A DNA stretch of 26,483 nt, from positions 1 through 26,483 of IMG/VR virus record IMGVR_UViG_3300042673_001502; one strand, given 5' to 3'. Positions 2,516 through 25,999 of the stretch are shown here, piece by piece. This DNA is from a virus. Within the stretch, counting starts at the first letter, position 1. The number at the start of each line of letters is the position of its first letter. Below the pieces are notes generated by a model, which made no database searches, was not told the origin of the DNA, and saw only the letters and a program-made list of their open reading frames with translations. A program made the position numbers and the translations under genes.

Positions 2516-3315
2516 AAGAGTTTCGCACTGACACAGATAGTATTACTAGAAAAACTTCTTGGAATTTAGTTGGAGCATATAAAGAAATTTTTGGCAACCT
2601 AGATGACAAACTATATCCATGCCTAATCAATGACAAAAAAGTTATTATTGGTGGATATAATAACTGGGGATGGGATTCACTAGACTTTATAAATATTGAT
2701 GGATACAGATCTGATAGTTTTAAAAAAAATACAGAAAAAGATATTGTTTTTTTAGGTTGTTCTCAAACATTTGGTGTTGGTGTTGCACAAAACTTTATTT
2801 GGCCAAAAGTTGTACTAGATTCTATTGCACCCAACAATAACCTAAATAATCTATCTTTAATTTCAGGCGCAACAGAAGAAATTGTTTATAATTTTTTTAA
2901 ATATTGCAATATATATAATAATCCAGGAACAGTATTTTTCTTAATGCCAGAGATACATCGTGGGTTTGAGCCTGTATTAGAGTTGGCTCAATTAAGAGCA
3001 ATACAGTTTTATCAGATATTAGAAATTTACTGCAAGATTAACAATATTAAACTTATTTCATCCACTTGGGAGATTGAGCCAGTTAAGGGTTCAAAACAAA
3101 GTCTTAATGATTTTTTTGATGGAAGGTTTGATACATTTTATAAAGTAGATAAACAAGAATATGCTCAAGATATTAATGATTTTATGGAAAAAAATAGTCA
3201 GGAAAAATATCTTTTAGTTGCTAGAGATAAAAGGCATATGGGTATTGCAATGCACCATGCTACTGCAAAGTTTATGGTGGAAAAATATTTAAACTTGACA
3301 TCAAAACAAGAGTAA
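2512..3315 (+). CDS. SGNH/GDSL-hydrolase-like protein
   Basis: 267 residues, starting in a 4-base ATGA overlap with the peptidase gene. DIVFLGCSQTFGVGV (about 77-91) looks like SGNH block I with Ser84 as nucleophile, and ARDKRH near the C-terminus supplies a D-x-x-H pair (Asp239, His242) as in block V. SGNH enzymes are esterases, lipases or O-acyl hydrolases, often removing acetyl groups from glycans. The block-I flanks RSD-x-FK...IVF-x-GCS-x-T-x-GVG recur in the 23385-24425 protein, a likely paralogue. The substrate is unknown, and the oxyanion Gly and Asn blocks are not obvious, so a non-catalytic relative is possible. Confidence 0.6.
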   Translation: MKEFRTDTDSITRKTSWNLVGAYKEIFGNLDDKLYPCLINDKKVIIGGYNNWGWDSLDFINIDGYRSDSFKKNTEKDIVFLGCSQTFGVGVAQNFIWPKVVLDSIAPNNNLNNLSLISGATEEIVYNFFKYCNIYNNPGTVFFLMPEIHRGFEPVLELAQLRAIQFYQILEIYCKINNIKLISSTWEIEPVKGSKQSLNDFFDGRFDTFYKVDKQEYAQDINDFMEKNSQEKYLLVARDKRHMGIAMHHATAKFMVEKYLNLTSKQE

Positions 3316-3323
3316 GATATACT
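3295..3323 (+). promoter_or_regulatory. Consensus promoter for leaderless mRNA
   Basis: TTGACA 3295-3300, a 17-bp spacer and TATACT 3318-3323. Only six bases separate the -10 from ATG 3330, so the expected transcription start is the A of the start codon. No ribosome site precedes the ATG. Confidence 0.8.
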
Positions 3324-3329
3324 TTATAT

Positions 3330-3551
3330 ATGAGCGAAGAATTTGAAGAAATCCTTAAGAATATTCAGGAGTCAGAATCAGATTTTAATGAGTTTGAGAT
3401 CTGGCTAGAAAATGGAATTGATCGGGGATGGATAACAGAACCGTTCTGTAATACTCATGAGGGAGACCCCTATATGAGTGAAGAAGAGCAACAAGAGTGG
3501 GAAGCAGGAGGCGACCCATGTCAACTAGTAATCAAGATAAAGGGTATGTAA
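3330..3551 (+). CDS. Small acidic hypothetical protein
   Basis: 73 residues, strongly acidic (runs of Glu/Asp throughout, SEEEQQEWE), with Cys at three places and no membrane segment. No family recognised. The gene is read from a near-perfect promoter that would give a leaderless mRNA, suggesting deliberate and probably strong expression. Small acidic phage proteins are often inhibitors of host enzymes or DNA mimics, but nothing in the sequence proves that. The secreted protease gene follows two bases later and probably shares the transcript. Confidence 0.7.
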   Translation: MSEEFEEILKNIQESESDFNEFEIWLENGIDRGWITEPFCNTHEGDPYMSEEEQQEWEAGGDPCQLVIKIKGM

Positions 3552-3553
3552 AT

Positions 3554-4327
3554 ATGAAAAAGTTAATCGCACTAATCGCAGTATTGTTTTCAGTAGTTGT
3601 TCCAATTAATGCAACTGCAAGTAATGTTGGTTCTGTTGTAATTATCGACAGTAACTTTAACGAGTCTCTAATTTCGGGAAGCCGTGAAGTAGTGTGTCTT
3701 TATACAACTAACTGCTCTGTTCCTCAATCTGGAAAAACAACAGAGTCAATGCACGGAACAATCATGGCTGAAGTTGCAAGAACTGCAAATCCAACTGCAA
3801 ATCTTATTTTAATTAAGGCTGCAACCACTCCAACAGGCATCGTAAATGGAGATGATTTTAATAATGCTTTGTCTTGGGTTATTGCAAACCTAAGTACAAA
3901 GAATATTAAGTCTGTATCATTTGCTCGTGGTGCAGGATCCAATACATCACTTGGATGCTCCCCAACAACTGGTCAAAATAAAGCAGTTGTTAAGGCAAGT
4001 ACTATCGCCAATGTCGACTCTTTGAAGGGGCATGGAGTCAATGTCTATGCTTCAACTGGAAATACAAACAAGGTTGGAAGCCTAGAGTATCCAGCATGTT
4101 TGCCAAATGTAACAGCAGTTACAACATTGTCAAGACAAAAGACTGATGGAGTGAACGAATACACAGATATCATTCTATCTGCTGGTTCACTAAAAGTTGT
4201 TTCTAAAAGTGGTGTTTCTACAAACCAAGTATTTATGACAACATCAGCAACTGCTACCTTAGCAGCAGCAATGTACGATAAGATCTCTTTTGTTCCTAAT
4301 AGCAGAACAAGGGTTTTGCTTCCTTAA
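3554..4327 (+). CDS. Secreted subtilisin-like (S8) serine protease
   Basis: 257 residues from ATG 3554, chosen because a signal peptide starts there: MKK, a hydrophobic core, then a plausible cleavage after about residue 22 (ATA/S). Subtilase landmarks in order: Asp32 in VVIIDSNF, His67 in SMHGTIMAEVA, Asn170 in YASTGNTN (oxyanion hole) and Ser231 in TTSATATLAAAM. The last replaces the usual GTSMA(T/S)P. Length equals a bare catalytic domain with no propeptide. Export by the host Sec route would place it outside the cell or in the envelope, where it could cut surface proteins or process lysis or virion factors. The altered Ser block leaves activity to be proved. It is followed by tRNA-Asn. 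Confidence 0.8.
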   Translation: MKKLIALIAVLFSVVVPINATASNVGSVVIIDSNFNESLISGSREVVCLYTTNCSVPQSGKTTESMHGTIMAEVARTANPTANLILIKAATTPTGIVNGDDFNNALSWVIANLSTKNIKSVSFARGAGSNTSLGCSPTTGQNKAVVKASTIANVDSLKGHGVNVYASTGNTNKVGSLEYPACLPNVTAVTTLSRQKTDGVNEYTDIILSAGSLKVVSKSGVSTNQVFMTTSATATLAAAMYDKISFVPNSRTRVLLP

Positions 4328-4334
4328 TTAGGAT

Positions 4335-4407
4335 TGGGCTGTAACTCAGATGGTAGAGTGCCGAACTGTTAATTCGGATGTCGCAGGATCGATACCTGCC
4401 AGCCCAG
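4335..4407 (+). tRNA. tRNA-Asn (anticodon GTT)
   Basis: A full cloverleaf can be drawn: acceptor TGGGCTG/CAGCCCA, D-stem ACTC/GAGT, anticodon stem CCGAA/TTCGG with loop CTGTTAA (anticodon GTT at 4368-4370), T-stem GCAGG/CCTGC with 7-base loop ATCGATA, and discriminator G4407. The 3' CCA is not encoded (CAA follows). The T-loop begins with A where T54 is usual. It probably supplements Asn decoding in an Asn-rich AT-rich genome. Confidence 0.92.
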
Positions 4408-4426
4408 CAAAGTAAGTTATATGGTG

Positions 4427-4445
4427 TATAATTGTTTTAACAATT
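4427..4445 (+). promoter_or_regulatory. -10 element with overlapping dyad
   Basis: TATAAT at 4427-4432 lies downstream of the tRNA, and AATTGTT/AACAATT (4430-4436 and 4439-4445) form a 7-bp dyad across the -10 and the expected start. There is no clear -35. The dyad could be an operator or a small 5' hairpin. The next gene begins at GTG 4463. Confidence 0.5.
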
Positions 4446-4462
4446 GAGAAGAATGGAACAAA

Positions 4463-5146
4463 GTGGAATACCCATCAATTTTAAACAATATCACTGATGA
4501 TTTTGACATATGGTACAAGACCAAAGATCCTATTTTTTCTGACCTGAGTTTAAAGTCAAGGCTGCCAGATAGGTGGGTTAGGTTTGATTCTGTGGCAAAA
4601 GGAAAACATAAAGATAGCGTGATTAAGCCAATCAATCCATACGTTCAGGCTCTTTATCCTGCACCAAGTCTTGTTGGTATAGAGAATGGTGTTGTTAGGT
4701 TGAGGCAGAGAAACCATGCAGAATTCTTTTTGCTTGAGACATCCACAAGACTAAGAAATATCGACAGGCCATGGATGAGGCAATACTACAACACAGACTT
4801 CAAAATGGAGAAAGACAAAGACTGCTTTGATGATGTGTTTAAGTTTTATGTGCCATGGTATATAGACATAGACGCTGAAATTTTTTATGAAACACCGCAA
4901 GAAGATTCTCCATTTATGATAAGCCCAGACTCCTTTGTTCATAAAAAAATAGATGAAGATGTACGATATCTAGAGCCAGACTTTGTGCCATTTAAATTTA
5001 AGAGGGTTGGCTCTCATATGGTTGACCACAAGTTTGGTAAAATAAAAAGGTATTCAGCAATGTTTGACATAGTATTTAAAGTAGATGGTATAATTGAAGA
5101 GAAAGTTAGGAACTTTTATGAACAAGATCAAGTTTTACCCATTTAG
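4463..5146 (+). CDS. Hypothetical protein
   Basis: 227 residues from a GTG start, the first in-frame start after the promoter; the ribosome site is weak. No family recognised. The protein is rich in Tyr, Phe, Trp, Asp and Arg, has no signal peptide or membrane segment and no nucleotide-binding loop. Its second half contains FKFYVPWYIDIDAEIFYE and alternates hydrophobic and charged residues, suggesting a beta-rich fold. It overlaps the start of the next gene by 29 bases and precedes two related genes, so it probably acts with them. It may be a diverged relative of that pair, but the key blocks do not align. Confidence 0.6.
   Translation: MEYPSILNNITDDFDIWYKTKDPIFSDLSLKSRLPDRWVRFDSVAKGKHKDSVIKPINPYVQALYPAPSLVGIENGVVRLRQRNHAEFFLLETSTRLRNIDRPWMRQYYNTDFKMEKDKDCFDDVFKFYVPWYIDIDAEIFYETPQEDSPFMISPDSFVHKKIDEDVRYLEPDFVPFKFKRVGSHMVDHKFGKIKRYSAMFDIVFKVDGIIEEKVRNFYEQDQVLPI
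5089..5094 (+). promoter_or_regulatory. Possible extended -10 inside the previous gene
   Basis: TGGTATAAT (TG at 5086-5087, hexamer 5089-5094) lies 24 bases before ATG 5118 with AGGA between, so a start near 5101 would give a short leader with a ribosome site. It is inside coding sequence and may be chance. Confidence 0.35.
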
Positions 5147-5840
5147 CCAGTCAACCACAGAGTTTGCTCCGAAGCCATATCCCGCTTTAAAGGCTATTCC
5201 AGATTGGTATAAAAGTCAGCCATCAGTAATAAATGAAAAAGAATCGCTTGCACAAGGGTTCTCTACTTCGACAATTAAGAGATGCATGCCAATATTTGAC
5301 TATATCACTGCAGGATACATATTATCTATTCCTTGCGATATATATATTGATGCGACCAATCCAGAAAAACTAGAGTGGTCAGTTCCACAGCCTATGAAGA
5401 CTTTTGCAATAAGCATGATAGCGTCACATTCTGAAGAGCAGTATTCTCATTTCCCTATAGATAGGGATAAATACCATAAGCAACTATTTAGAATTTTACC
5501 TTTCTGGTCGGTAAAAACAGATCCAGGATACAGTTGCCTGTTTCTTCACCCAACTCACAAAGATCCCCTTCCATTCCTAACAATAGAAGCAATAATAGAC
5601 ACTGATAATTTTATTACAGATGGACACGTCTCTATGCTAATTGAAAAAGATTTTAAAGGTGTAATAAAACAAGGAACTCCTTTTATTCAAGTCCTTCCAT
5701 TCCAAAGAGAAGATTGGCAAATGGAGTTAGTTGATCCAGAGGTGGCACAAAAAGAAATAACTGCACAAAGACTTTCTCTTCGTAGTACATTTTCTTTTGG
5801 CTATAAGAACAAAATGCGATCAAAAAAGGATTTTAAGTGA
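5118..5840 (+). CDS. dUTPase-fold-like (DUF6065-like) protein, copy 1
   Basis: 240 residues. ATG 5118 is preferred to an in-frame TTG at 5094 because AGGA precedes it at good spacing. Shared with the next gene: an N-terminal F-x-P-F/T block, KAIPDWYKS, RCMP-x-FD-x-x-TAGY, PGYS-x-L-x-x-HP, and a C-terminal DFKGVIKQGTPFIQVLPFQREDW. The order PGY, a central G/A-II-D/E-D turn, then I-x-x-G-x-P-x-x-Q-x-x-P recalls trimeric dUTPases and the DUF6065 family. Canonical dUTPase catalytic motifs, including the C-terminal Gly-rich arm, are absent, so a binding or structural role on that fold is more likely. The family link is by eye and uncertain. Confidence 0.6.
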   Translation: MNKIKFYPFSQSTTEFAPKPYPALKAIPDWYKSQPSVINEKESLAQGFSTSTIKRCMPIFDYITAGYILSIPCDIYIDATNPEKLEWSVPQPMKTFAISMIASHSEEQYSHFPIDRDKYHKQLFRILPFWSVKTDPGYSCLFLHPTHKDPLPFLTIEAIIDTDNFITDGHVSMLIEKDFKGVIKQGTPFIQVLPFQREDWQMELVDPEVAQKEITAQRLSLRSTFSFGYKNKMRSKKDFK

Positions 5841-6610
5841 GTGATGTTCCACTACCTATAAAGTTTACTCCAACATTTTTAGGACACTCTGGTATGCTTA
5901 CTATGCCAGTGCCAGCAGTATCCAAAGTTCCAGAATGGTATAGAAGCCTTGCACGTTTTGATAGATCAAATGATGATATAACCCTTGGTGTGAATAATAA
6001 TGTTGGTACTGATGGAGCAATGGTGGCAACAAAAATGTGTATGCCTTTTTTTGATGCGCTAACTGCTGGATATCAATATGTATTAGAAGATGATGTGTAT
6101 GTTGATTTAGATAAAGATGGAAAGCCAATCATTTCGTGGAAAGGCCAGGTAATGATGGTAGATAAAAGACCAACTATAGAATTACCAGTGCCAGACAATT
6201 GTCATCCAATTCACTATGGTTGGAGAATGAACTGGTTCTATGAAACTCCTCCAGGATATTCTGTACTCATTACACACCCAATGAACAGGTATGACCTTCC
6301 ATTTTACACAATGTCTGGAATTGTTGAGTCAGATATTTGGGGCCTTCCAGTTTTTACAGCATTTTTCTTAAAGAGAAATTTTATAGGAGTAATACCAAAG
6401 GGAACACCAATATTTCAGATTGTTCCAATCAAGAGAGATTCTTGGGAATCAGAGTGCATAGAGACAGACGAAGCGCTTGACAGGCATGAACTAGCAGCAG
6501 AAAACAGAAGATCAAGACTTTATGGATACTACAAGCAAACAGCCTGGAGAAAAAAGATGTTTGGTGTAAAAAATTCTAAGATAAAAGAAGTTTCACACGA
6601 TGATGAATGA
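5837..6610 (+). CDS. dUTPase-fold-like (DUF6065-like) protein, copy 2
   Basis: 257 residues from GTG 5837, which overlaps the previous TGA (GTGA) and has AAAGGA upstream. It is a diverged tandem copy of the preceding gene: KVPEWYRSLAR, MCMPFFDALTAGY, PPGYSVLITHP, GIVESDIWGLPVFTAF, and FIGVIPKGTPIFQIVPIKRDSW. The segment PPGYS...GIVESD...IPKGTPIFQI follows the order of dUTPase beta-barrel elements more clearly than copy 1. Catalytic residues are not evident. The C-terminus is long and basic (RRSRLYGYYKQTAWRKKMFG). Function unknown; coupled to the glycosyltransferase-like gene downstream by an 11-base overlap. Confidence 0.62.
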   Translation: MSDVPLPIKFTPTFLGHSGMLTMPVPAVSKVPEWYRSLARFDRSNDDITLGVNNNVGTDGAMVATKMCMPFFDALTAGYQYVLEDDVYVDLDKDGKPIISWKGQVMMVDKRPTIELPVPDNCHPIHYGWRMNWFYETPPGYSVLITHPMNRYDLPFYTMSGIVESDIWGLPVFTAFFLKRNFIGVIPKGTPIFQIVPIKRDSWESECIETDEALDRHELAAENRRSRLYGYYKQTAWRKKMFGVKNSKIKEVSHDDE

Positions 6611-7463: not shown

Positions 7464-7466
7464 TGG

Positions 7467-7484
7467 TATAATTATATAAAGGAG
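7467..7484 (+). promoter_or_regulatory. Extended -10 promoter plus ribosome site
   Basis: TGGTATAAT with hexamer 7467-7472, then AAAGGAG (to 7484) six bases before ATG 7490. It sits in the first intergenic gap after a long chain of overlapping genes. There is no clear -35, as is usual for TGn promoters. Confidence 0.6.
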
Positions 7485-7489
7485 AAAAT

Positions 7490-8182
7490 ATGACAGACTC
7501 AAACATGCCTGCAGAACGCAGGGCAGACCTAAAAGGTGGACACAGAATCCACGTAATAAAGAATTTTATAACGCCAGAAGATGCACAGACCTTAATTAAT
7601 GAACAAAAGAATCCATCTTCAACAAACCCATATCCAGAATATTATAAAAAAAGATATGGAGGAACCTCTTTCCCATACAACAAAACTGTAATGGATATTT
7701 TAAAAAAGTATGGAGATAAGTCTAATGAGGTTCATAAGGAGCAAAATGCTTTCTATAATGACATCTATGTATTTAAGGCTTTTGGTTCTTGGTGGACAGA
7801 AGGTACAAAGGGTGATCTGCATATTGACGCACAGGGACCAGAGCCATGGATTGAGTGGAGCACAATTATCTACTTAAATGGTAACTTAAATCCACAAGAA
7901 GAAGAAGAAGGACAAACAATCAGTCCAGATCTAGAGTTTACTGGTGGAAGAATTTATTTCCCAAATCAAAATTATGTGTATGAGCCAAGAAGATATTCTG
8001 CAGTATTCTTCCCTAGTGCTGGAACAGAGTATATTCATGGAATAACTAAGGTCCTATCTGGTAACAGGCATACAGCGCTATACATGCACACAAGCCTTCC
8101 AAACCATGCTGATCCAGATTTCCTAAATCCAGGGGTAGTCCCAAAGTGGAAGGCTAAGGAATATCCGTTAAATGACGAATGA
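7490..8182 (+). CDS. 2-oxoglutarate/Fe(II)-dependent oxygenase (prolyl-hydroxylase-like)
   Basis: 230 residues. The iron triad is visible: His111-x-Asp113 in GDLHIDAQG and His183 in YIHGITKV, with Arg193 in GNRHTAL as the 2OG-binding residue. FTGGRIYFP before the second half is the usual jelly-roll turn. The family hydroxylates proteins, peptides, sugars or small molecules, using O2 and 2-oxoglutarate. Good promoter and ribosome site just upstream; the next gene, also a 2OG oxygenase, overlaps by 11 bases. The two are related only in the core, so they probably have different substrates. Confidence 0.85.
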   Translation: MTDSNMPAERRADLKGGHRIHVIKNFITPEDAQTLINEQKNPSSTNPYPEYYKKRYGGTSFPYNKTVMDILKKYGDKSNEVHKEQNAFYNDIYVFKAFGSWWTEGTKGDLHIDAQGPEPWIEWSTIIYLNGNLNPQEEEEGQTISPDLEFTGGRIYFPNQNYVYEPRRYSAVFFPSAGTEYIHGITKVLSGNRHTALYMHTSLPNHADPDFLNPGVVPKWKAKEYPLNDE

Positions 8183-8840
8183 TTTTGAAGTCTTAGATCT
8201 TGGAATGGTTTATTATAAAAATATAGTAAATGATCCATATGGTTTGATTAAAAAGATTGAAGAACTTGATTTGAGATATCAAAAAGACAAGCCAGCACCT
8301 TTTATGACATCAGTAAAGCCATGGATTCCATGGACTTACGGAGAAGGCGAAAACAAGATTACTTTTAATATGCAAAAGTTTATACCACAGGCGCAAGATA
8401 TTTCAAAATCAGATATATATCTAAAAGAACAAACGTTTATATCTAACGAACTATTTGGTGCACTTGATAGAACCCTAAGTCACTATTCAACTGAACTTTA
8501 TCCATTTGCTGAAAAAAATATAAAGTCTAGAGAAAAAACTATGCACCTGCTTAAGTACGACAAGACTGGTCATCTGCCAGCACACCAAGACCAAGGCATT
8601 AGCACAAGAGTCTTGTCTGTTCTTTTATACTTAAATGATGACTATGAGGGTGGAGAAATTGAGTTCAGGCAGTCTGGATTAAAGTTTAAGCCAGAAGCAG
8701 GAAGCGTATTATTTTTTCCTTCAAACTTCTTGTACGTTCACGAAGTGTATCCAGTCACACGTGGCCCAAGGTATGCACTGCCAAACTGGTACCACAACGT
8801 TCCTCTTGACGAAAAAAGAGATTCAACTGGAGCAGAATGA
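8172..8840 (+). CDS. 2-oxoglutarate/Fe(II)-dependent oxygenase
   Basis: 222 residues. His138-x-Asp140 in PAHQDQG, His190 in LYVHEV and Arg200 in GPRYAL make the full iron and co-substrate set. YEGGEIEF and GSVLFFPS are the jelly-roll signatures of the prolyl-4-hydroxylase-like family. The core resembles the minus-strand oxygenase at 20649-21353 (both have NDDYEGGE-x-EF and KP-x-AG). It lies between another oxygenase and a carbamoyltransferase, with a 4-base ATGA overlap to the latter, suggesting steps on one product. Confidence 0.87.
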   Translation: MTNDFEVLDLGMVYYKNIVNDPYGLIKKIEELDLRYQKDKPAPFMTSVKPWIPWTYGEGENKITFNMQKFIPQAQDISKSDIYLKEQTFISNELFGALDRTLSHYSTELYPFAEKNIKSREKTMHLLKYDKTGHLPAHQDQGISTRVLSVLLYLNDDYEGGEIEFRQSGLKFKPEAGSVLFFPSNFLYVHEVYPVTRGPRYALPNWYHNVPLDEKRDSTGAE

Positions 8841-10270
8841 TTATCTTAGGGGTAAACGAAACCACTCATGATGCTTCAGTATCTTTAATAAAAGATGGAG
8901 AAATTCTTTTTGCTGGGCATGCAGAAAGATACAGCAAACAAAAAAATGACTGGTTTACGAATAAAGAACTAATAAAAGATGCACTGCAATATGGGTATCC
9001 AGATCAAATAGCATATTACGAAAAGCCTTTACTTAAGAAACTTAGAGTAAAGACTCGTGGAGGCTTTGGTGGAGACAGGCCATGGTTTGAGTCTACAGAA
9101 CTTGGAGACTTACCAAGAAAAAACTTTGGTCATCATTACTCTCACGCAGCAGCAGGTTATTATACAAGCGCATTTGATGATGCATGTATTGTAGTGCTAG
9201 ATGCAATTGGTGAGTTTAATACATCAACAATTTGGGTTGGTGAAGGCGACAAGATTAAACTTAAGTATAAGCAGAACTATCCCATTAGTTTTGGATTATT
9301 CTACTCTGCATTTACAGAACTGATTGGACTTATGCCAAACCAAGAAGAATATATTATGATGGGTATGGCTGCATACGGAGACTGGAAAAGATATTACAAA
9401 GAAGTAGATGAGTATTTTCCAGAGTATGATCAGCAAAAGTATAACTTTCATAAAGGAATCAATGACTGGGGAATGGTAATTACTGAGCAAGACAGATTTG
9501 ATATCGCTGCAGCAGTTCAGATGGTTTACGAGCAAAGGCTAAATCAGTTTATGCGTATGGCAAAAAGAATGACTGGAAAAAATAATTTGGTATTCATGGG
9601 TGGTTGTGCTCTTAACTCTTCTGCAAATACTTTACTATGGAATATTTTTGATATGATTTGGATCATGCCTAACCCTGGAGATGCTGGTAGTTCTTTGGGC
9701 GCTGCAGCAGCCCTGCACGGAAAGCACCTTGATTGGAAGACTCCATATCTTGGTTATGATCTTGGAGGAGAGTATCCTGTTCAGCAAATTGTGGACGGTA
9801 TATTAAAAGATGGAATCGTAGCAGTAGCAACAGGAAGAGCCGAATACGGACCAAGGGCATTAGGAAACAGAAGCATCCTTGCAGATCCTAGAGATCCACT
9901 AATAAAAGACAAGGTTAATTTAATTAAACAGAGAGAGTTGTTTAGACCATTTGCCCCAGTGGTTATGGAGGAGTGTGCCTCTAAATGGTTTGATATGGAC
10001 TTTACAAGCCCTTACATGCAGTATACGGTCAAGTGCCTACAGCCTGAAAAGATACCTTCTGTGGTTCATGCAGATGGTACATCAAGAGTTCAGACTGTGA
10101 ATAAGAACCAGCATCGTGGTCTATGGAGAGCAATTAATAAGTTTTATCTTGAAACTGGTGTTCCAGTCCTATTAAATACAAGTCTTAATATTAAGGGGCA
10201 GCCACTACTTAATGATGAAATTGATATTATTAAGTGGGAAAAAGAATATAACTTTACAATCTGTAGGTAA
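8837..10270 (+). CDS. NodU/CmcH-type O-carbamoyltransferase
   Basis: 477 residues. N-terminal ILGVNETTHDASVSLIKDG and FAGHAERYS begin an ASKHA-type fold; GHHYSHAAAGYYTS carries the conserved His cluster (99-103), LDAIGE follows, then GGCALNSSAN, PNPGDAGSSLGAA, EYGPRALGNRSILADPR and LLNTSLNIKGQP. These enzymes transfer carbamoyl from carbamoyl phosphate, through carbamoyl-AMP, to a hydroxyl of a sugar, antibiotic or Nod factor. The C-terminus stops soon after LLNTSLNIKGQP and lacks the longer tail of many family members, so it is a compact version. A glycan target is inferred from the glycosyltransferases nearby. Confidence 0.9.
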   Translation: MIILGVNETTHDASVSLIKDGEILFAGHAERYSKQKNDWFTNKELIKDALQYGYPDQIAYYEKPLLKKLRVKTRGGFGGDRPWFESTELGDLPRKNFGHHYSHAAAGYYTSAFDDACIVVLDAIGEFNTSTIWVGEGDKIKLKYKQNYPISFGLFYSAFTELIGLMPNQEEYIMMGMAAYGDWKRYYKEVDEYFPEYDQQKYNFHKGINDWGMVITEQDRFDIAAAVQMVYEQRLNQFMRMAKRMTGKNNLVFMGGCALNSSANTLLWNIFDMIWIMPNPGDAGSSLGAAAALHGKHLDWKTPYLGYDLGGEYPVQQIVDGILKDGIVAVATGRAEYGPRALGNRSILADPRDPLIKDKVNLIKQRELFRPFAPVVMEECASKWFDMDFTSPYMQYTVKCLQPEKIPSVVHADGTSRVQTVNKNQHRGLWRAINKFYLETGVPVLLNTSLNIKGQPLLNDEIDIIKWEKEYNFTICR

Positions 10271-10275
10271 AGTGC

Positions 10276-10301: not shown

Positions 10302-10308
10302 CCACAAC

Positions 10309-11447: not shown

Positions 11448-11453
11448 TATACT
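11448..11453 (+). promoter_or_regulatory. Possible -10 before the 11454 gene
   Basis: TATACT directly abuts ATG 11454. Transcription would then start near 11460, inside the first codons, favouring initiation at the second ATG (11463). There is no convincing -35 or TGn, so this is tentative. Confidence 0.35.
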
Positions 11454-11711
11454 ATGAATACAATGATTGATAGCCCTGCAGAAATTAAAGAGTGGATCTT
11501 GAAGGCAACAGATAGATGTGATTCCTGTGCAGCAGAAGCGCTAGTACAGGTTACTGGTATAAACGGAGAACTTCTTTTCTGTGGCCATCATTACAACAAA
11601 ATCATGGATAGCAAAGAAGGTTACGACAAGATGATGTCGTTTATGATCAGTATCATTGATGAACGAGACAAACTTATTGAAAACAAAGCAAAGGAAGCAC
11701 CACACGCATGA
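11454..11711 (+). CDS. Short Cys/His zinc-binding protein (DUF7455-like)
   Basis: 85 residues from ATG 11454, or 82 from ATG 11463 if the promoter overlapping the first ATG is real. DRCDSCAAEALVQV and LLFCGHHYNK give a C-x2-C...C-x2-H zinc-knuckle like the short DUF7455 proteins common in actinobacteria. The rest is helical and charged. A related C...C...LCDLHY pattern is in the 49-residue protein at 20148. Function unknown. ATGA overlap with the next gene. Confidence 0.7.
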   Translation: MNTMIDSPAEIKEWILKATDRCDSCAAEALVQVTGINGELLFCGHHYNKIMDSKEGYDKMMSFMISIIDERDKLIENKAKEAPHA

Positions 11712-14518: not shown

Positions 14519-14806
14519 ATGCCAAAGCATAAATGGAAAGATGATGCTGTATGTTTGGATTACGATACAAATTTATTTTTTGATAAATATGAAGAAGATG
14601 AGTTACTTAGGCCAGCAATAGATAAATTATGCTCTGGCTGTCCTGTTGCAAAAATGTGTTTTGCTGTTGGCGTTTCTCAAAAAGAGTGGGGTGTTTGGGG
14701 TGGAGTATACTTAGAAAATGGACAAATGTCTAAGGAGTTCTCACGACATAAAAGTAAATCTGATTGGGCTAGTACATGGCAATATCTTACAATGGAGTCT
14801 CAATAA
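14519..14806 (+). CDS. WhiB-family iron-sulfur transcriptional regulator
   Basis: 95 residues. The four cluster cysteines are Cys12 (DAVCLDYD), Cys38 and Cys41 (LCSGCPV) and Cys47 (KMCFAVG), followed by GVWGGVYL (58-65), the WhiB beta-turn that contacts sigma factor region 4. WhiB proteins hold a [4Fe-4S] cluster and bind the primary sigma factor to steer transcription; they occur only in actinobacteria and their phages. A mycobacteriophage WhiB (TM4) blocks host WhiB2 and septation, so host takeover is a reasonable role. This is the clearest host marker in the window. The C-terminal basic DNA-binding tail is short (SRHKSKSDW). Confidence 0.93.
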   Translation: MPKHKWKDDAVCLDYDTNLFFDKYEEDELLRPAIDKLCSGCPVAKMCFAVGVSQKEWGVWGGVYLENGQMSKEFSRHKSKSDWASTWQYLTMESQ

Positions 14807-18522: not shown

Positions 18523-18527
18523 TAACT

Positions 18528-19720: not shown

Positions 19721-19722
19721 AT

Positions 19723-20151
19723 ATGTTTGATTTTTTTGCATTTGTAATTTTTGTTTTTATATTTTTCTTTTTGGTTTATAAAAATATTAGACTAAGGCTC
19801 AAGATATCTTCAGTAACATTAGAGTTGATAAAAGCACACCTAGATAAAACAATAGTGTCAGAAAAGTTTACAGAGTTGCAAGAAATAAACAAAAATAGGA
19901 GCAATCTGGATCAGGAGGCTTTCTTAAAATTTATTTCAGACTCAAGAGATTGGGCTTACCAATATATAGATGATGTCCAGTCATCATTAAATAAGTTTGT
20001 TAGTGATGTAGAGCCTGAGATATTATATTTTGACACATATGGAGACCTAATGGGCGCAGAGCCCAACTATAACGCAATGAAGAAAATTTCTGGGGCATAC
20101 AAAGAACTAAAGAAACTGCTACCAGAAGACTATGATAGAATAGAGCAATGA
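19723..20151 (+). CDS. Membrane-anchored coiled-coil protein
   Basis: 142 residues. An extreme Phe-rich N-terminal membrane helix (about 2-20) is followed by RLRLKISS and a long charged helical region, consistent with a cytoplasmic coiled coil tethered to the membrane. This is the build of an i-spanin or membrane-linked phage accessory, but actinobacteria have no outer membrane to fuse, so a spanin role is unlikely unless the host differs. No family recognised. Confidence 0.65.
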   Translation: MFDFFAFVIFVFIFFFLVYKNIRLRLKISSVTLELIKAHLDKTIVSEKFTELQEINKNRSNLDQEAFLKFISDSRDWAYQYIDDVQSSLNKFVSDVEPEILYFDTYGDLMGAEPNYNAMKKISGAYKELKKLLPEDYDRIEQ

Positions 20152-20297
20152 TCGCCCTAAAGCATACTAAAAACCTCAACATGTTTATGTGTGAGGAAGA
20201 GTTGTGCGAGGACGAAAGTACGCAGATTTGGGCAAACTCTGAAAGCAGAATTGTTGATCTCTGTGATTTACATTATAGTCAAGCAACACAATCCTAG
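20148..20297 (+). CDS. Small Cys/His protein (49 aa)
   Basis: ATG 20148 overlaps the previous TGA (ATGA); the frame runs 49 residues to TAG 20295-20297. CEEELCEDESTQIW and DLCDLHYSQ give C-x4-C...C-x2-H, a zinc-knuckle pattern like that of the 11454 protein (C-x2-C...C-x2-H). Coupling and motif support a real gene too short for most gene finders. The next gene's promoter and ribosome site lie inside or overlap its 3' end. Confidence 0.6.
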   Translation: MIALKHTKNLNMFMCEEELCEDESTQIWANSESRIVDLCDLHYSQATQS

Positions 20298-20301: not shown

Positions 20302-20307
20302 AAAAAA

Positions 20308-20607: not shown

Positions 20608-20620
20608 TTTAAAAAGAATT

Positions 20621-20645
20621 AGGGGGCCTTTCGGCCCCCTTTTTC
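20621..20645 (+). terminator. Rho-independent terminator
   Basis: AGGGGGCC/GGCCCCCT, an 8-bp GC stem with TTTC loop, followed by TTTTC. It lies between the convergent ends of 20607 (+) and 20649 (-). The T-tract is best for the plus strand; the hairpin may also slow polymerase coming from the other side. Confidence 0.93.
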
Positions 20646-20648
20646 TAT

Positions 20649-21353
20649 TTAAAAAAGTTTTTTAAATTCTGGTTTATATGGAAACACTTTTAGTTTTGAT
20701 CTTCTAAGTGCAGACTCATCATCTTCTCCAAAGAATAAAAATGAAACAATTGTCCATCTTGGGTTTCCACTTTTAATCTCATGGATTCTGTGTTCATAAG
20801 AGTATCCAGATGGGAAAACAAGAAGATCTCCAGCCTTTGGCTTTATTGTAACTCCAAAATGAATAAACTCTAATTCGCCACCTTCGTAATCATCGTTTGG
20901 ATAATACACTAGGGATACTGTTCTTGGCGTTGCATATGAGTCATCACTATGTGCACCAAAGAATTCACCATTAGAAAACCTAGAAATTCTTAGAGACTCT
21001 CTGCTTTTTGGATCAATATTCCAGTGAAAACAGTAGGAGTCAATTATTCCACGAAAAGCATTGTTTGCCTCTTCATGTTCCCATAGCCAGCAGGTATCTG
21101 ATTGTTTTCCATTTTCTCTTGTATATTCTAAGTCATCAAAAAAATCTTCACGAACCCACTTCTTTGCGCCATTAATTCCATCTTTATCTTCCCAAAAATC
21201 TTTGTCTAAAAGTCTATTCATTGTATCCATTGAGTTTGGCCATACATTCCTATATAGGTGAACTCCAGGCGCAACGCTTTCAAAAGCGTATCTATTGCCT
21301 TCCTGGTCTTGAGTAAATCCTTCAGCAGCGTTTTGCATTCTTTGTTGATCCAT
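20649..21353 (-). CDS. 2-oxoglutarate/Fe(II)-dependent oxygenase (minus strand)
   Basis: 234 residues from ATG 21353; an upstream in-frame TTG (21365) sits too close to the GGAAGG ribosome site. His135-x-Asp137 in FGAHSDDSY, His188 in YSYEHRI and Arg199 in GNPRWTI complete the iron and 2OG set; YEGGELEF and GDLLVFPSG are the jelly-roll turns. It is the third such enzyme here and shares the NDDYEGGE-x-EF and KP-x-AG blocks with the one at 8172-8840. It is the only gene of its orientation in the middle of the window and has its own divergent promoter. Confidence 0.87.
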   Translation of the reverse strand: MDQQRMQNAAEGFTQDQEGNRYAFESVAPGVHLYRNVWPNSMDTMNRLLDKDFWEDKDGINGAKKWVREDFFDDLEYTRENGKQSDTCWLWEHEEANNAFRGIIDSYCFHWNIDPKSRESLRISRFSNGEFFGAHSDDSYATPRTVSLVYYPNDDYEGGELEFIHFGVTIKPKAGDLLVFPSGYSYEHRIHEIKSGNPRWTIVSFLFFGEDDESALRRSKLKVFPYKPEFKKLF

Positions 21354-21378
21354 TTTGTTTACCAACCTTCCGTATTCA

Positions 21379-21401
21379 ATTATACCATGCTATGGTATAC
21401 T
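21379..21401. promoter_or_regulatory. Divergent promoter pair on an 8-bp dyad
   Basis: TATACCAT (21381-21388) and ATGGTATA (21392-21399) are perfect inverted arms around GCT. The right arm is part of TGGTATACT, the -10 for the plus-strand gene (21396-21401); the left arm is part of the minus-strand TATAAT (21384 down to 21379), also preceded by TGG. Plus transcription would start at ATG 21408, making a leaderless mRNA. One protein binding the dyad could control both genes. Confidence 0.65.
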
Positions 21402-21407
21402 ATATAT

Positions 21408-21977
21408 ATGCTAGGAAATAAACAATTCGACGATAATTTTTTGCTAATTACCTATCCAAGAACTGGATCACATTTTTTATTTTTTTATTTAAAACAGTTA
21501 ACTGGGTTTGAAATTAAAAAATCACACTTTCCAAGATGGTCTGGTGATAAAAAGGTTATTACTATAATTAGAGATCCAGAAGAAACTTTGAGGTCAGCAT
21601 TTACAATGTCAAAGCAGGCTGCCGTTAATAGAGTAAAAGACTTTAACTGGGAAGAGCATAAACACGAAAGAGGATTAACAAATATAACTGGATATAACTA
21701 TTTCTTTGATTATATGACAGAGCATGCTGATGTCTTTATAGACTACAATACTTTGATTGAAAGGCCTTACGATGTTTGTAAATTTTTAGGAGATTATATT
21801 GGTTTACGAGTTAAGTCAAAAGAAGACTATATTCAGGTTTTAGAGGATATTCCTGGTCAAGACTATCTTGTTTCAAGTAAAACATCTCCATATTATGAAG
21901 ATATGGATGTGTCTTGGGTAGATCTGTCTGCTCATTATGATAGGTATTATGAGATGCTTGCTAAGAAAAGTATCTAA
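21408..21977 (+). CDS. Sulfotransferase-like protein 1
   Basis: 189 residues from ATG 21408, chosen because it lies exactly six bases after a TATACT and the P-loop is near the N-terminus; the frame is open upstream through the divergent gene. LLITYPRTGSHFL (12-24) is the PAPS 5'-phosphosulfate loop and VITIIRDPEETLRSAF (50-65) the 3'-phosphate-binding segment with Arg-Asp-Pro. The family moves sulfate from PAPS to hydroxyls of sugars, proteins or small molecules. Short for the family but with the main binding blocks. The kinase at 11708 could supply PAPS. Confidence 0.8.
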   Translation: MLGNKQFDDNFLLITYPRTGSHFLFFYLKQLTGFEIKKSHFPRWSGDKKVITIIRDPEETLRSAFTMSKQAAVNRVKDFNWEEHKHERGLTNITGYNYFFDYMTEHADVFIDYNTLIERPYDVCKFLGDYIGLRVKSKEDYIQVLEDIPGQDYLVSSKTSPYYEDMDVSWVDLSAHYDRYYEMLAKKSI

Positions 21978-21993
21978 TTAAAGAATTGTGAAA

Positions 21994-22695
21994 ATGAAAA
22001 ATATAAGAGTTTTAATAAATAGTGCCCCAAGGTCTGGTCATGCCTGGCTTCAGTATTTGCTATTAAAGTCAGTTAATTTTGATAATAATATTTCAATGGG
22101 AGAGATTCACAGTCAATTCATAATACGTGAGAATGTTCCTGTTACACTTCTTGCCAAGTTCCCAGATGTGGTTCAAACAACAATACTTAGAAGCCCTCTA
22201 GAGATAATACCTTCAGTTGTAACAAAAACTATTGGTGGATTTGGAAACACAAGGACTATGGGTGTGTCTATGCCACATGAAAATAACAGTTTGCCATCAT
22301 TAGATCAACTTGTAGACGGTGAGTTTAATGTGTATAAAAGGTGGTCTGGTTCAATTATTAAAAATATTGAAAACTTGGAAGCCTTCACTTTTGATCAGGT
22401 ATGTGATAATCCAGAATTTGTTGTAGATAGTATAATGGCAAACTTCCAATATGAATATTTTAATGTAAAGAATATAGACTTGCCAACCTTGTTAAAAGAA
22501 GCACGGCAGGGAATAAGCCAACATGATAAAGGTAATCCAGGATTTAATAATCCATTACCAATAGAAAAGAAACCAGACATATACTATGAAGCATTAGATA
22601 TTGTAAAGAAAAACAGAAGACTTCAAGAATCTATTGAACTTTTTGAGTTAGCCAAAGATGAAATATATAAAAAGCAGGGACAGATAAATGGCTAG
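21994..22695 (+). CDS. Sulfotransferase-like protein 2
   Basis: 233 residues from ATG 21994 (GTG 21988 in frame is an alternative; neither has a strong ribosome site). VLINSAPRSGHAWLQYLL (6-23) is the P-loop and TTILRSPLEIIPSVV the second phosphate block, with Arg-Ser-Pro in place of Arg-Asp-Pro. It diverges from the preceding gene beyond those blocks, so the two probably use different acceptors. Overlaps the methyltransferase gene by eight bases. Confidence 0.75.
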   Translation: MKNIRVLINSAPRSGHAWLQYLLLKSVNFDNNISMGEIHSQFIIRENVPVTLLAKFPDVVQTTILRSPLEIIPSVVTKTIGGFGNTRTMGVSMPHENNSLPSLDQLVDGEFNVYKRWSGSIIKNIENLEAFTFDQVCDNPEFVVDSIMANFQYEYFNVKNIDLPTLLKEARQGISQHDKGNPGFNNPLPIEKKPDIYYEALDIVKKNRRLQESIELFELAKDEIYKKQGQING

Positions 22696-23398
22696 AAGAC
22701 CTGTTAGGCCTATGTCAGATGAGGCTATAAAATCTATGAATATAGATGAGATAGAGGATTCTGAAAAGATTAGTCAAAAGCAACTCAACAATGCAAGACT
22801 ATTTTCTTCAAGGGAAGAGTACGCTAAAAGCCTTCCTAAAGGTATAAAGTACATGGAGGTAGGGGTTGCTTGGGGATACTCTGTTCAGATGTTCCTTGAT
22901 GCTACTGAAGCCCAATCAGCAGACCTTGTGGACCTGTATAACCAGGACCTAAAGTGCTGGTCATGGAGAAAGTTTGAATCATGCCAGTGCAATGGTTTTA
23001 AGCATGAACTTCTATATACCCCAGATACACATGAACAGTATATTATTGATAAGTTTAGTTCTTATAAAAATGTTAGAACAATCAAAGGTGATGCAACAAA
23101 AGTTCTTCCAGAATTAAAAAACAAATATAACTTAATCTATATAGATGTTTCAAATGATAGGTTTCTTACAAGAGAGGTTCTCAAACATTGTTCTTTGCTT
23201 GTAGAAGAAGGAGGAGTTATTGGTCTAAATGACTATCTTATCTACGATGGTATAATAGAAGATACCCCATATGGTACATTTCAAACAGTAAACGAGTTCT
23301 TACACGATAATCCAGACTGGGAAGTAGATGCTATTGCCCTACACAATCTAGGATTTTACGATATATACATAAGGAAAGGTAGTAATGGACCTACATAA
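22688..23398 (+). CDS. Class I SAM-dependent methyltransferase
   Basis: 236 residues. YMEVGVAWGYSVQMFLD is motif I (E-x-G-x-x-x-G), VRTIKGDATKVLPEL carries the acidic-after-strand motif, LIYIDVSNDRF motif IV-like, and VEEGGVIGLNDYLIYDG the post-IV turn. The arrangement resembles Methyltransf_24 sugar or small-molecule O-methyltransferases. A basic N-terminal extension (ARRPVRPMSDEA) precedes the fold. Neighbouring sulfotransferases suggest joint decoration of one acceptor. Confidence 0.8.
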   Translation: MARRPVRPMSDEAIKSMNIDEIEDSEKISQKQLNNARLFSSREEYAKSLPKGIKYMEVGVAWGYSVQMFLDATEAQSADLVDLYNQDLKCWSWRKFESCQCNGFKHELLYTPDTHEQYIIDKFSSYKNVRTIKGDATKVLPELKNKYNLIYIDVSNDRFLTREVLKHCSLLVEEGGVIGLNDYLIYDGIIEDTPYGTFQTVNEFLHDNPDWEVDAIALHNLGFYDIYIRKGSNGPT

Positions 23399-24425
23399 AA
23401 GAAGAGCCAGAAATGATAGCAAGATGATAGACGTTGAGTTTCCAAAAGATGCTATAGATGAGTTGTTTATTGGCAAGTTAGACCCTACATGGGGAAGATC
23501 AAATGCGTTTGTTAATCTAAAAAGAGATCTCGATGAATACTACAAGTTGTACGGTTACTTTTTTGATGGAGACTATCATCACTTTAGCAAAATTCCTCCA
23601 GAAAGAATTCTTGATGGCAGAGAAGACTGGGAAGTTGACTATAAATACAATAAAGATTTTTTTAGATCAGATAACTTTAAAGAAGATCATGAGGGACTAC
23701 ATATTGTTTTTGGGGGCTGTTCTAATACAGAAGGAGTTGGGGCTACAATAGAGAAAACTTGGTCTCATATGCTGTATGAAGAAATATCTAAAGATTATAA
23801 AGTTTCTGGATATTTTAATCTAGGAAAAGGTGGCTACGGATGGCACAAGATAATATCATCCTATCTTGATTATGAAAAAAGATTTGGATCTCCAGACATA
23901 TTTGTTGTAAACCACCCAAACATACTCAGAGACTATTATTGGGATGCTAAGCAGGATAAATGGATATATGCTCAACAGTATCCATACGCTGCAGAAGGAA
24001 CAGAAGAAGAACTAGAAGAGGCTAAGACCTTAAGAGAAGGTCATCCTTATCACGGAATAAATATCAATGTTTTTCCAACATTAGATGAATGCAGACGTGC
24101 TTTCCCAGCATGGCTAACTTCTTGGAACCTATTTATTGAATACTGTAATTCTAAAAATACAAAAGTTGTTTGGGGTATGTGGGATGGATCTGGCCAGGTA
24201 AGTCTAACAAACTGCGATCTATTTTTAGAATCATATGTAAGACTATATGGTGTAACAGAGTCCTTTGTAGAAGAGTTTAGAAAAGATGGTAAGTTAGAAG
24301 ATGGAGATATGGATGCAAGAGATGGACATCCAGGGTTTTTAGTACAACTTAACTGGAAGAATCAATTTATTAAATTTATAAAAGATAGGGGATTGTTAAA
24401 TGAAAATCATAAAAAAAATAATTAG
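23385..24425 (+). CDS. SGNH/GDSL-hydrolase-like protein, paralogue
   Basis: 346 residues, overlapping the methyltransferase gene by 14 bases. LHIVFGGCSNTEGVGA contains the block-I GCS-x-T nucleophile; MDARDGHPGF near the C-terminus carries the Asp-His pair. It is longer than the 2512-3315 protein but shares RSD-x-FK...IVF-x-GCS-x-T-x-GVG...W. Trp/Tyr-rich middle (WDAKQDKWIYAQQYPY, WGMWDGSG) suggests carbohydrate contact. An esterase or deacetylase acting on a glycan is the likely role. Confidence 0.65.
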   Translation: MDLHKRRARNDSKMIDVEFPKDAIDELFIGKLDPTWGRSNAFVNLKRDLDEYYKLYGYFFDGDYHHFSKIPPERILDGREDWEVDYKYNKDFFRSDNFKEDHEGLHIVFGGCSNTEGVGATIEKTWSHMLYEEISKDYKVSGYFNLGKGGYGWHKIISSYLDYEKRFGSPDIFVVNHPNILRDYYWDAKQDKWIYAQQYPYAAEGTEEELEEAKTLREGHPYHGININVFPTLDECRRAFPAWLTSWNLFIEYCNSKNTKVVWGMWDGSGQVSLTNCDLFLESYVRLYGVTESFVEEFRKDGKLEDGDMDARDGHPGFLVQLNWKNQFIKFIKDRGLLNENHKKNN

Positions 24426-24486
24426 GAGATATAGGATGAAAAAAATTCTAAAAGAATTAAACAAAGATAGGAAGTTTATATACTAA
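24400..24486 (+). CDS. Cationic micropeptide (28 aa)
   Basis: ATG 24400 with AGGGGA upstream; a second in-frame ATG (24436) has AGGAGATATAGG upstream. The 28-residue product is almost all Lys, Arg, Ile and Leu (KIIKKIIRRYRMKKILKE) and ends RKFIY. Its TAA overlaps the next ATG by one base. The long form overlaps the previous gene by 26 bases. Tight coupling and two ribosome sites support translation; an amphipathic membrane- or RNA-binding peptide, or a leader for the next gene, are both possible. Confidence 0.5.
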   Translation: MKIIKKIIRRYRMKKILKELNKDRKFIY

Positions 24487-25256
24487 TGAATGGTACATTA
24501 TACTTAATAGGATCTCCAATTGGAAACCCTGAAGATATAAGCGATAGGCTTATCAATGCTGTGACAAATGCAACAACTATATGTGTTGAAGATGAGGGTA
24601 GATTTTCAGAATTTTGTAAAGAAAACAATTTAAGTTATACTGCAGAGATAGTAGACATATCCTATTCTGTTGGTAATGATCGTGAGTTTAACAATAAAGA
24701 TTTAATCATAAATAAATTATTATCAGGGGAAGATGTACACATTGTCTCTGACGAAGGAATGCCAGGAGTATGTGATCCAGGACATACACTTACCTACCTA
24801 GCAGTTAAAAAGAATATACCAGTAAAAGTTTCTCCTGGACCATCAACAATTATTGCTGCTGCAATTACTGCAAATGTTGGAAATGGTTTCTCTTTTGAGC
24901 AGTTTCCTCCACACAATGAACAGGGTCATGAAGAAATTTTGTGGGAAATACTTCTTCAAAAAGATAACCCAATGATCTTTTTATTACAAAATCCTCTACA
25001 TCTGCCTTCAGACAATGAGGAGAAGATTAACAAAGTTTGGCCTACAAATAGTGCTTTCTACTTTATTAATAAGGCTGTTGAAAAATTTGGGGAGAACAGA
25101 AATGCAGTCTTTTGTACAAACCTTACCTACCCTAATGAGTATGTACTTAGAGGAACACTAAAAACAATAAAAGAATATATAGATAACAACCCAACTAAGT
25201 TACACAAGATGTGTATTGTTGTTGATGGAAAAGATAAAAAGGTTGCAGTTGCTTAA
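24486..25256 (+). CDS. RsmI-like tetrapyrrole-methylase-fold rRNA methyltransferase
   Basis: 256 residues. GTLYLIGSPIGNPEDIS (3-19), VSDEGMPGVCDPG (87-99) and VSPGPSTIIAAAI (115-127) match the RsmI family (16S rRNA C1402 ribose 2'-O-methylation), which uses SAM. Bacterial RsmI has FxFxGFLPRK where this has FSFEQFPPHNEQG, and the following substrate domain is diverged, so the target may differ. Length is near the cellular enzyme without its C-terminal extension. A ribosome-modifying enzyme in a phage is unusual. Convergent with the 42-aa gene, their stop codons overlapping by four bases. Confidence 0.82.
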   Translation: MNGTLYLIGSPIGNPEDISDRLINAVTNATTICVEDEGRFSEFCKENNLSYTAEIVDISYSVGNDREFNNKDLIINKLLSGEDVHIVSDEGMPGVCDPGHTLTYLAVKKNIPVKVSPGPSTIIAAAITANVGNGFSFEQFPPHNEQGHEEILWEILLQKDNPMIFLLQNPLHLPSDNEEKINKVWPTNSAFYFINKAVEKFGENRNAVFCTNLTYPNEYVLRGTLKTIKEYIDNNPTKLHKMCIVVDGKDKKVAVA

Positions 25257-25381
25257 TTCTTTTTATGCTTTACTTCATACGGTGCAATCTTAGACTTAAT
25301 GCGACCATCTTTGTATAATCTAACAATCCATCCATCTTTAATCTGAATAGGGTTAAACGCTGATGCTTTTTTCTTTGGCAT
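25253..25381 (-). CDS. Small basic hypothetical protein (42 aa)
   Basis: Reads on the minus strand from ATG 25381 to TAA 25253. MPKKKASAFNPIQIKDGWIV followed by RLYKDGRIKSKIAP and a Lys-rich end gives a basic beta-hairpin-like protein. No family recognised. It follows the Cys-rich gene by a two-base gap on the same strand, and the gap between the two larger genes is filled exactly, supporting a real gene. Confidence 0.6.
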   Translation of the reverse strand: MPKKKASAFNPIQIKDGWIVRLYKDGRIKSKIAPYEVKHKKN

Positions 25382-25383
25382 AA

Positions 25384-25701
25384 TTATTCCTTAAATAGGT
25401 TAGTAACTCTTGTTTGCTTTGAGTAATCTTTTGCTGAAAAGAATATAGACTCTGTCTTTGCCACTGGCACACAGTTTGGAACTGGTTTTCCATCTGCCCC
25501 TGGCTTCATTCCTCTTTGAACGTAGCCTTCCCAACATGGATCAGCCTTCCCTATTGATGAGTCATACATAGCCATAGCAACCTCTGAGTCGTTATCTGAA
25601 GAGCATACAGGACAGTCTGGACAATCTACATTTAGTTGTTTGCAGGTTTCGCAGTCGCATCCTTGATAGGTGCTTGTTGGCATCATTGAATCATCACTCA
25701 T
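25384..25701 (-). CDS. Cys-rich phage protein with CWxGY...PNCVP motif
   Basis: 105 residues. Six cysteines in CDCETC...CPDCPVC (15-33) look like a zinc ribbon. Later DPCWEGYVQRGMK and VPNCVPVAK form a pattern (CW-x-GY-x-x-x-G-x-K...PNCVP) that I recognise from many phage proteins, often near head or protease genes, without a settled function. ATG 25701 lies six bases after a TGATATACT promoter, giving a leaderless mRNA. The C-terminus (FSAKDYSKQTRV) is plain. Confidence 0.7.
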   Translation of the reverse strand: MSDDSMMPTSTYQGCDCETCKQLNVDCPDCPVCSSDNDSEVAMAMYDSSIGKADPCWEGYVQRGMKPGADGKPVPNCVPVAKTESIFFSAKDYSKQTRVTNLFKE

Positions 25702-25707
25702 ACTATC

Positions 25708-25713
25708 AGTATA
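25708..25713 (-). promoter_or_regulatory. Extended -10 for leaderless mRNA of 25384-25701
   Basis: On the minus strand TGATATACT (hexamer 25713 down to 25708) is followed by six bases, then ATG 25701; there is no ribosome site. Same geometry as 3318-3330 and 21396-21408. Confidence 0.7.
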
Positions 25714-25719
25714 TCATAC

Positions 25720-25986
25720 TTAGCCAGCAAGGCGATTGTGTGTTCTTATCCTGTGACAGTTAGCACAAACTACCTCACACTTTTCTATCTCTTTCTTGAT
25801 AGCCTTCCATGAAAAACCATCATGGATCATTCTTGATACGTTGTATTTTTTATCTCTTATGTGATCAAAGTCTAGGATTATATGATTACTAACACCACAA
25901 TCTACACAGCCAGAATCCTCTTTTATCTTAGCAAGCATCTTTTTATACTGCTGCTTATTATAATGGTCTAACTCTTTGTCAGTCAT
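25720..25986 (-). CDS. HNH endonuclease
   Basis: 88 residues from ATG 25986; the frame is open further 5' but a TATAAT promoter sits eight bases before this ATG. CVDCG (Cys27, Cys30), LDFDHI (Asp41, His42) and CEVVCANCHRIRTHNR (Cys74, Cys77, His78) form the zinc-stabilised HNH centre. Small free-standing HNH nucleases in phages act in packaging, host DNA damage or homing. Upstream is a structured non-coding stretch. Confidence 0.92.
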   Translation of the reverse strand: MTDKELDHYNKQQYKKMLAKIKEDSGCVDCGVSNHIILDFDHIRDKKYNVSRMIHDGFSWKAIKKEIEKCEVVCANCHRIRTHNRLAG

Positions 25987-25993
25987 TGATATT

Positions 25994-25999
25994 ATTATA
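25994..25999 (-). promoter_or_regulatory. -10 placed for near-leaderless mRNA of the HNH gene
   Basis: Minus-strand TATAAT (25999 down to 25994), seven bases, then ATG 25986. No Shine-Dalgarno follows the -10. Confidence 0.55.

Follow-up and report, generated by a model that had tools for sequence, protein, structure and literature searches.

Genes translated without a 5' leader are established in actinobacteria, where TA-led genes carry a TANNNT -10-like signal about 12 bases before the start codon (PMC3160421). In a study on mycobacteria, nearly one-quarter of the transcripts are described as leaderless, and a 5'-terminal ATG or GTG as necessary and sufficient for leaderless translation (PMC4633059). 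Among phages, leaderless promoters named PL1, PR2 and PL2 have been predicted in cluster O mycobacteriophages (PMC4351075). Freshwater actinophages carrying whiB, a marker of actinophages, have already been described (PMC10202952, PMC6802176); the words "leaderless" and "promoter" do not occur in PMC6802176. The PMC matches listed contained no paper reporting leaderless genes in phages of this kind, subscription papers and preprints lying outside this search. The stretch of DNA analysed here, called the window, is a 26,483-base IMG/VR virus record (GC 36.4%, one tRNA-Asn). Four of its genes, coding for a small acidic protein, a sulfotransferase-like protein, a Cys-rich protein and an HNH endonuclease-like protein, are in all likelihood leaderless, each having its own promoter placed for a transcription start on or next to the ATG.

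The position of the -10-like signal before the start codon is the same as in the TA-led genes. That set is cellular, comes from high-GC species and has a degenerate TANNNT, whereas the present signals belong to phages and are near-consensus TATA(A/C)T boxes, often with TGn or TTGACA (PMC3160421). The cluster O case is a prediction for a few promoters in five Mycobacterium phage genomes (PMC4351075), whereas many gene families with comparative support are concerned here. Leaderless actinobacterial genes and predicted mycobacteriophage ones are already known; what is new is that an uncultured group supplies comparative evidence, and how widely the arrangement extends over gene families.

Promoters and start codons of the four genes

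The gene of the acidic protein (73 residues, 3330 to 3551, plus strand) is preceded by the layout TTGACA-N17-TATACT-N6-ATG, in which the -35 box lies at 3295 to 3300, 17 bases ahead of the -10 box at 3318 to 3323, and six bases separate the latter from the ATG at 3330. The sulfotransferase-like gene (PF00685, 21408 to 21977, plus strand) starts six bases after a TATACT box (21396 to 21401) with TGn in front. On the minus strand, the gene of the Cys-rich protein (105 residues, 25384 to 25701) starts at 25701, six bases after TATACT (25713 to 25708) with TGa in front, and the HNH gene (88 residues, 25720 to 25986) starts at 25986, seven bases after TATAAT (25999 to 25994). By eye, the HNH promoter has no clear -35 box or TGn, and the expected leader is 0 or 1 base. 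The four TATA(A/C)T sites, with gaps of 6, 6, 6 and 7 bases to the ATG, were confirmed at the coordinates given in an earlier note on this DNA. The absence of a ribosome site, also claimed there, was borne out, since no Shine-Dalgarno-like run occurs in the 20 bases upstream of each gene. The same note had contrasted these genes with 7490, 10309, 13549 and 20308, regarded as promoter-led with a strong ribosome site; the first three do have a Shine-Dalgarno-like run behind a TATAAT, and 20308 has a strong one, but by eye the box upstream of 20308 is only a weak TATAGT.

The arrangement was compared with shuffled sequence. TATA(A/C)T lies 6 or 7 bases before four of the 48 listed starts (one of them mis-indexed and reading GAT), whereas after dinucleotide shuffling of the 50 bases upstream of each start the mean was 0.17 and the maximum 3, four being reached in none of 2000 trials. 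When the whole window was shuffled, a procedure that destroys open reading frames, four sites were obtained in 0 of 300 trials. The strict-motif spacing of the four genes as a set is not the result of chance. Across the window, eight strict sites at 6 or 7 bases were counted, and the four others, all within genes, precede frames of no more than 4 to 36 codons.

Spacing of -10 boxes in related viral DNA

Viral contigs were scanned with the acidic, Cys-rich, HNH, sulfotransferase and 2OG-Fe(II) oxygenase proteins as queries, the best 80 matches being taken in four of the five scans (for the acidic gene, the closest 80 of 360 loci). These 320 loci, together with L001, which duplicates part of the window, amount to 321 loci and 3.85 Mb; the tiles sharing few 25-mers were kept, giving 1.65 Mb, window included. 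Distances were then counted between TATA(A/C)T boxes and those downstream ATGs that open reading frames of 50 codons or more. The earlier note had proposed such a scan of related phages, and it revealed a sharp peak at six bases: 31 sites at distance 0, then 14, 5, 10, 6 and 13 at distances 1 to 5, 313 at six, 49 at seven, 17 at eight and 40 at nine. Counts at distances 10 to 30 were between 5 and 49, as expected from leadered genes. Only 8 GTG and 11 TTG codons were found at distance 6, so that GTG is rare against the 313 ATG, unlike in mycobacteria, where both ATG and GTG are used (PMC4633059). By comparison, Shine-Dalgarno starts lying 3 to 8 bases from a strong Shine-Dalgarno hexamer in the phage loci comprised 490 ATG and 36 GTG.

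The peak persisted when the families used for the search were removed. With open reading frames of at least 35 codons, 389 distance-6 sites were obtained. Once the clusters of the acidic, Cys-rich and HNH proteins had been taken out, 326 sites in 83 clusters were left, 161 of which came from loci found through the 2OG gene, itself mostly leadered; 287 sites in 81 clusters survived the removal of every cluster touched by any of the five query proteins. The exact spacing is thus kept in dozens of gene families and therefore points to real use of a translation mode known from actinobacteria. For ATG starts opening at least 40 codons, TATA(A/C)T was found at six bases in 372 cases, and a Shine-Dalgarno site combined with TATA(A/C)T 14 to 35 bases upstream in 134; as leadered genes are missed by the second figure when their leaders are longer or their boxes weaker, and query families are included, these sequence counts indicate only that leaderless starts are not rare in these phages. 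Leaderless initiation looks like one of two ordinary gene-start modes in the group, the other being the Shine-Dalgarno mode.

A base profile was computed from 387 distance-6 sites weighted down by cluster size, in which the hexamer (-12 to -7) and the ATG were selected. When the A of the ATG is numbered +1, TTGAC appears at -35 to -31, T and G at -15 and -14, and T with a frequency of 0.67 at -1. The -10, TGn and -35 elements are then at standard promoter positions. TGn only was present in 198 of these sites, a -35 box only in 85, both in 10 and neither in 94; a Shine-Dalgarno-like run was detected in 23. Of 370 leaderless sites, 108 have a divergent -10 box in the 40 bases upstream, and the four nearest ten-base bins contained 115 divergent boxes versus 30 same-strand control boxes. 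Extended -10 boxes placed back to back were found at 42 leaderless sites. One such pair precedes the sulfotransferase gene (21379 to 21401), with TATAAT on the minus strand (21384 to 21379), TATACT on the plus strand (21396 to 21401) and TGn before each; the two boxes form the palindrome TATACCATGCTATGGTATA at 21381 to 21399. The divergent partner is a leadered 2OG-Fe(II) oxygenase gene (20649 to 21353, minus strand).

The acidic gene, its neighbour and the other families

The acidic family was classed as leaderless in 50 of 53 distinct upstream regions. TTGAC occupies the -35 place in all 44 distinct acidic upstream regions compared, window included, and the -10 box is a strict TATA(A/C)T in 43 of them and TACACT in one. 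In most relatives examined, the acidic gene lies directly 3' of a gene for an HslV/proteasome-like protein ending in ...GPVD or GPID. Among 57 distinct ends of this gene, NTTGAC, which is the -35 box of the acidic gene, was read in 44 of 44 adjacent cases; of the 13 remaining ends, one (L032) was found to be adjacent to a diverged acidic gene. In the 12 with an intervening gene, TTGAC is kept in three (L125, L128 and L139), and the nine others read GTAGAT (four, including the window), GTTGAT (two), GTGGAT, GTCGAT and ATTGAT (one each). In the window, the last codons of the HslV-like gene (1991 to 2515, plus strand) read GTAGAT at the place of the -35 box because another gene sits between it and the acidic gene; this intervening gene (within 2512 to 3315) was found with only three distinct upstream regions among the loci. 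Within other upstream sequence, each of the 12 displaced acidic genes shows TTGAC-N17, then a -10 box and six bases to the ATG, the -10 box being TATGAT in L125, TACACT in L087 and TATA(A/C)T elsewhere. The difference between adjacent and displaced cases gave a Fisher p of 2e-8 with L032 moved to the adjacent class after inspection and 8e-8 with L032 unmoved, values that ignore shared ancestry. Promoter boxes, a fixed and conserved spacing, the presence of the arrangement in unrelated upstream contexts and the lack of a ribosome site can all be read from these sequences and their comparison.

In the Cys-rich family, the -10 box stands six bases before the aligned ATG in 10 of 30 distinct upstream regions; in another 10 the start is one codon earlier and the -10 box is shifted along. 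In the last 10 the arrangement is absent at the aligned ATG, several of these being perhaps inside a longer protein.

Homologous starts were also classed by family, with a slightly looser -10 box at 6 or 7 bases from any in-frame ATG near the homologous start, the leaderless class outranking the Shine-Dalgarno class; genes 5119 and 13099 are left out of these counts. Expressed per distinct upstream region, the leaderless share is 48/66 for HNH, 27/75 for the Cys-rich family, 13/50 for the 18528 family, 13/125 for the 18903 family and 11/37 for the 22688 family. The 13549 family is leaderless in 13 of 84 although its window member has a Shine-Dalgarno site. Leaderless starts are nearly or wholly absent from the 2OG 20652 family (1/57), WhiB (0/106), the CHAP lysin (0/60), the 1420 and 1629 families (0/23 and 0/30) and the 20308 family (1/106, with a Shine-Dalgarno site in 104). 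In several families, some relatives are leaderless and others have a Shine-Dalgarno site, and therefore the start mode changes between relatives of one gene. A possible fifth leaderless gene of the window (20148 to 20297, plus strand) has TGa-TAGAAT six bases before its ATG, and 22 of the 34 distinct upstream regions of its relatives fall into the leaderless class. At 11448 to 11465, TATACT directly abuts the ATG at 11454 and a second ATG lies nine bases past the box; among the relatives of 11454, 28 of 68 distinct upstream regions were classed as leaderless, and the window start may be misplaced.

The HNH protein is 94 to 100% identical across the best 80 of at least 590 confirmed viral matches, which hints that the gene spreads as a mobile element, perhaps together with an RNA encoded upstream. 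Just upstream of HNH (26007 to 26097, minus strand) lies a candidate for a conserved RNA, about 88 bases long, with a possible promoter, TACAAT, six bases before its first G. Its terminal stem has 12 pairs in the fold (z -2.8) and 11 in a 12-sequence alignment, three pairs being changed on both sides, in single sequences. No Rfam family was matched by this candidate. It gave 173 long, redundant matches in the loci, of which 163 are directly upstream of HNH; in four others HNH follows after some 800 bases, five are at a locus end and for one (L046) HNH was not found.

The acidic protein matched neither Pfam nor PHROG and none of the named phages, and its predicted structure (mean pLDDT 57.9) was too poor for a structure search. 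Elsewhere in the window (8172 to 10270), a 2OG oxygenase gene is followed by a carbamoyltransferase gene; in pelagiphage HTVC008M, a carbamoyltransferase gene is followed by two 2OG oxygenase genes.

Host, alternative explanations and significance

The first 25,000 bases of the window gave no megablast match to the named-phage collection. Because a WhiB gene is present (14519 to 14806, plus strand; PF02467, E 4.2e-11), the host is probably an actinobacterium, and the label "freshwater" for the phage group would follow from its likeness to published freshwater actinophages. In one scan of cellular contigs, HNH matches shared 35 to 74% identity and were distant relatives only, many of them actinobacterial and some from other phyla; the 197 phage records matched were all below 60% identity, the largest groups being Streptomyces (52) and Mycobacterium (34) phages. 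Leaderless translation in the style of the host is plausible, and the step from mycobacteria to the window phage is one that we infer by analogy. Genomes of one actinobacterial phylum, that of G001, were searched by raw pattern counts that ignore open reading frames, the sums being added by hand. At least one distance-6 site was present in 236 of 296 genomes, and 38 were recounted at distances 5 and 8 and also with GTG. Nine large genomes, a biased sample picked for high counts, gave 281 sites at 6 versus 97 at 5 and 121 at 8, and individual small genomes with a peak at 6 are G024 (21 versus 7 and 8) and G039 (27 versus 12 and 12).

In the proposed mechanism, a sigma-70-type promoter recognized by the host polymerase would serve each gene, transcription would start on the A of the ATG (for HNH, there or one base before), and the ribosome would begin on the 5'-terminal AUG of a leader-free mRNA without a Shine-Dalgarno site, as in actinobacteria; start site, polymerase and terminal AUG initiation are what we infer from the sequence. 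For the acidic, Cys-rich and HNH genes, the last with a leader of 0 or 1 base, the comparison strongly favours the earlier note's leaderless reading, and the sulfotransferase start is comparatively the weakest of the four. Its placement of the start site on the A of the ATG fits the six-base cases; for HNH, the -10 box is 7 bases from the ATG in 68 of 85 distinct regions, 8 in 10, 9 in five, 10 in one and absent in one, so the leader would be of 0 to a few bases.

This spread at HNH is one of several points that weigh against leaderless initiation. Just two near-identical upstream regions were available for the sulfotransferase among the query-matched loci, and its wider family is leaderless in 3 of 13 distinct upstream regions. 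The families were sampled through genes chosen in the window, and the raw counts summed over 29 small, AT-rich actinobacterial genomes, out of 33 of at most 1.6 Mb, have no peak at 6 (959 sites versus 1261 at 5 and 1296 at 8). The T at -1, considered as proof of the start site, is too weak, T being high at distances 5 and 8 as well. Distances 0 and 9 also have raised counts, some of which starts like 11454 may account for. Read-through from upstream genes could also add leadered transcripts.

Coincidence in AT-rich DNA is scarcely credible as an explanation. For the loose TANNNT motif, the window shows no clear enrichment (6 starts versus 2.65 expected, with 6 reached in 80 of 2000 shuffles). 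Under the chance-spacing check of the earlier note, the excess is thus plain for the strict motif and weak for the loose one, and the claim therefore rests on the strict motif and on the relatives. Distance-6 sites in equally AT-rich control phages of other hosts (34 to 36% GC, 50 kb each) number 2 in P-SSM2, 0 in HTVC008M and 0 in T4. The peak in the relatives refutes chance for the set, and a single site such as 21408 could still be fortuitous. It is very unlikely that promoters are simply squeezed against genes in compact genomes, with leaders of a few bases varying freely: the upstream gene does contain the acidic -35 box in 44 of the 57 ends, a majority of the relatives examined, and distances 0, 7 and 9 are somewhat raised, but compactness predicts a broad range instead of one sharp peak at 6 (313 sites versus 13 at 5 and 17 at 8), and the six bases are kept where the start shifts by one codon in the Cys-rich family. 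Joint activation of the leaderless genes as a regulon at a single stage of infection, for instance when initiation factors or Shine-Dalgarno recognition are altered, is rather improbable. In its favour, some families (CHAP lysin, 20308, 1420 and 1629) are almost never leaderless and others mostly so, and -35 boxes are slightly, not significantly, commoner in leaderless clusters (18/77 versus 5/45, p 0.15; 0.25 versus 0.10 per site, families not being balanced). Per protein cluster, TGn is equally frequent in leaderless (39/77) and leadered (24/45) sets (p 0.85), and no distinct promoter class was found for leaderless genes; leaderless sites have a mixture of promoter types, both modes are present in several families, and a Cys-rich bias of leaderless proteins, suspected by eye, was not supported (one-sided p 0.66 and 0.55). 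The idea of a chosen set with shared timing was not upheld, the four promoters being themselves of different types.

With predicted leaderless starts retained as the best explanation, we offer only tentatively that AUG-leaderless initiation is usual right behind a gene's own strong promoter in a large group of freshwater actinophages, is gained and lost gene by gene, and may be favoured because intact 70S ribosomes can read leaderless mRNAs while Shine-Dalgarno initiation is limited or altered by infection. The HslV-like gene of the relatives, whose final codons contain the acidic -35 box, clearly illustrates how a promoter shapes the codon choice of a neighbouring gene, and this synonymous-codon contrast indicates, from sequence alone, that leaderless promoters are maintained in uncultured phages. 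The arrangement predicts transcription starts to the base and would help to place the start codons of many small phage genes.

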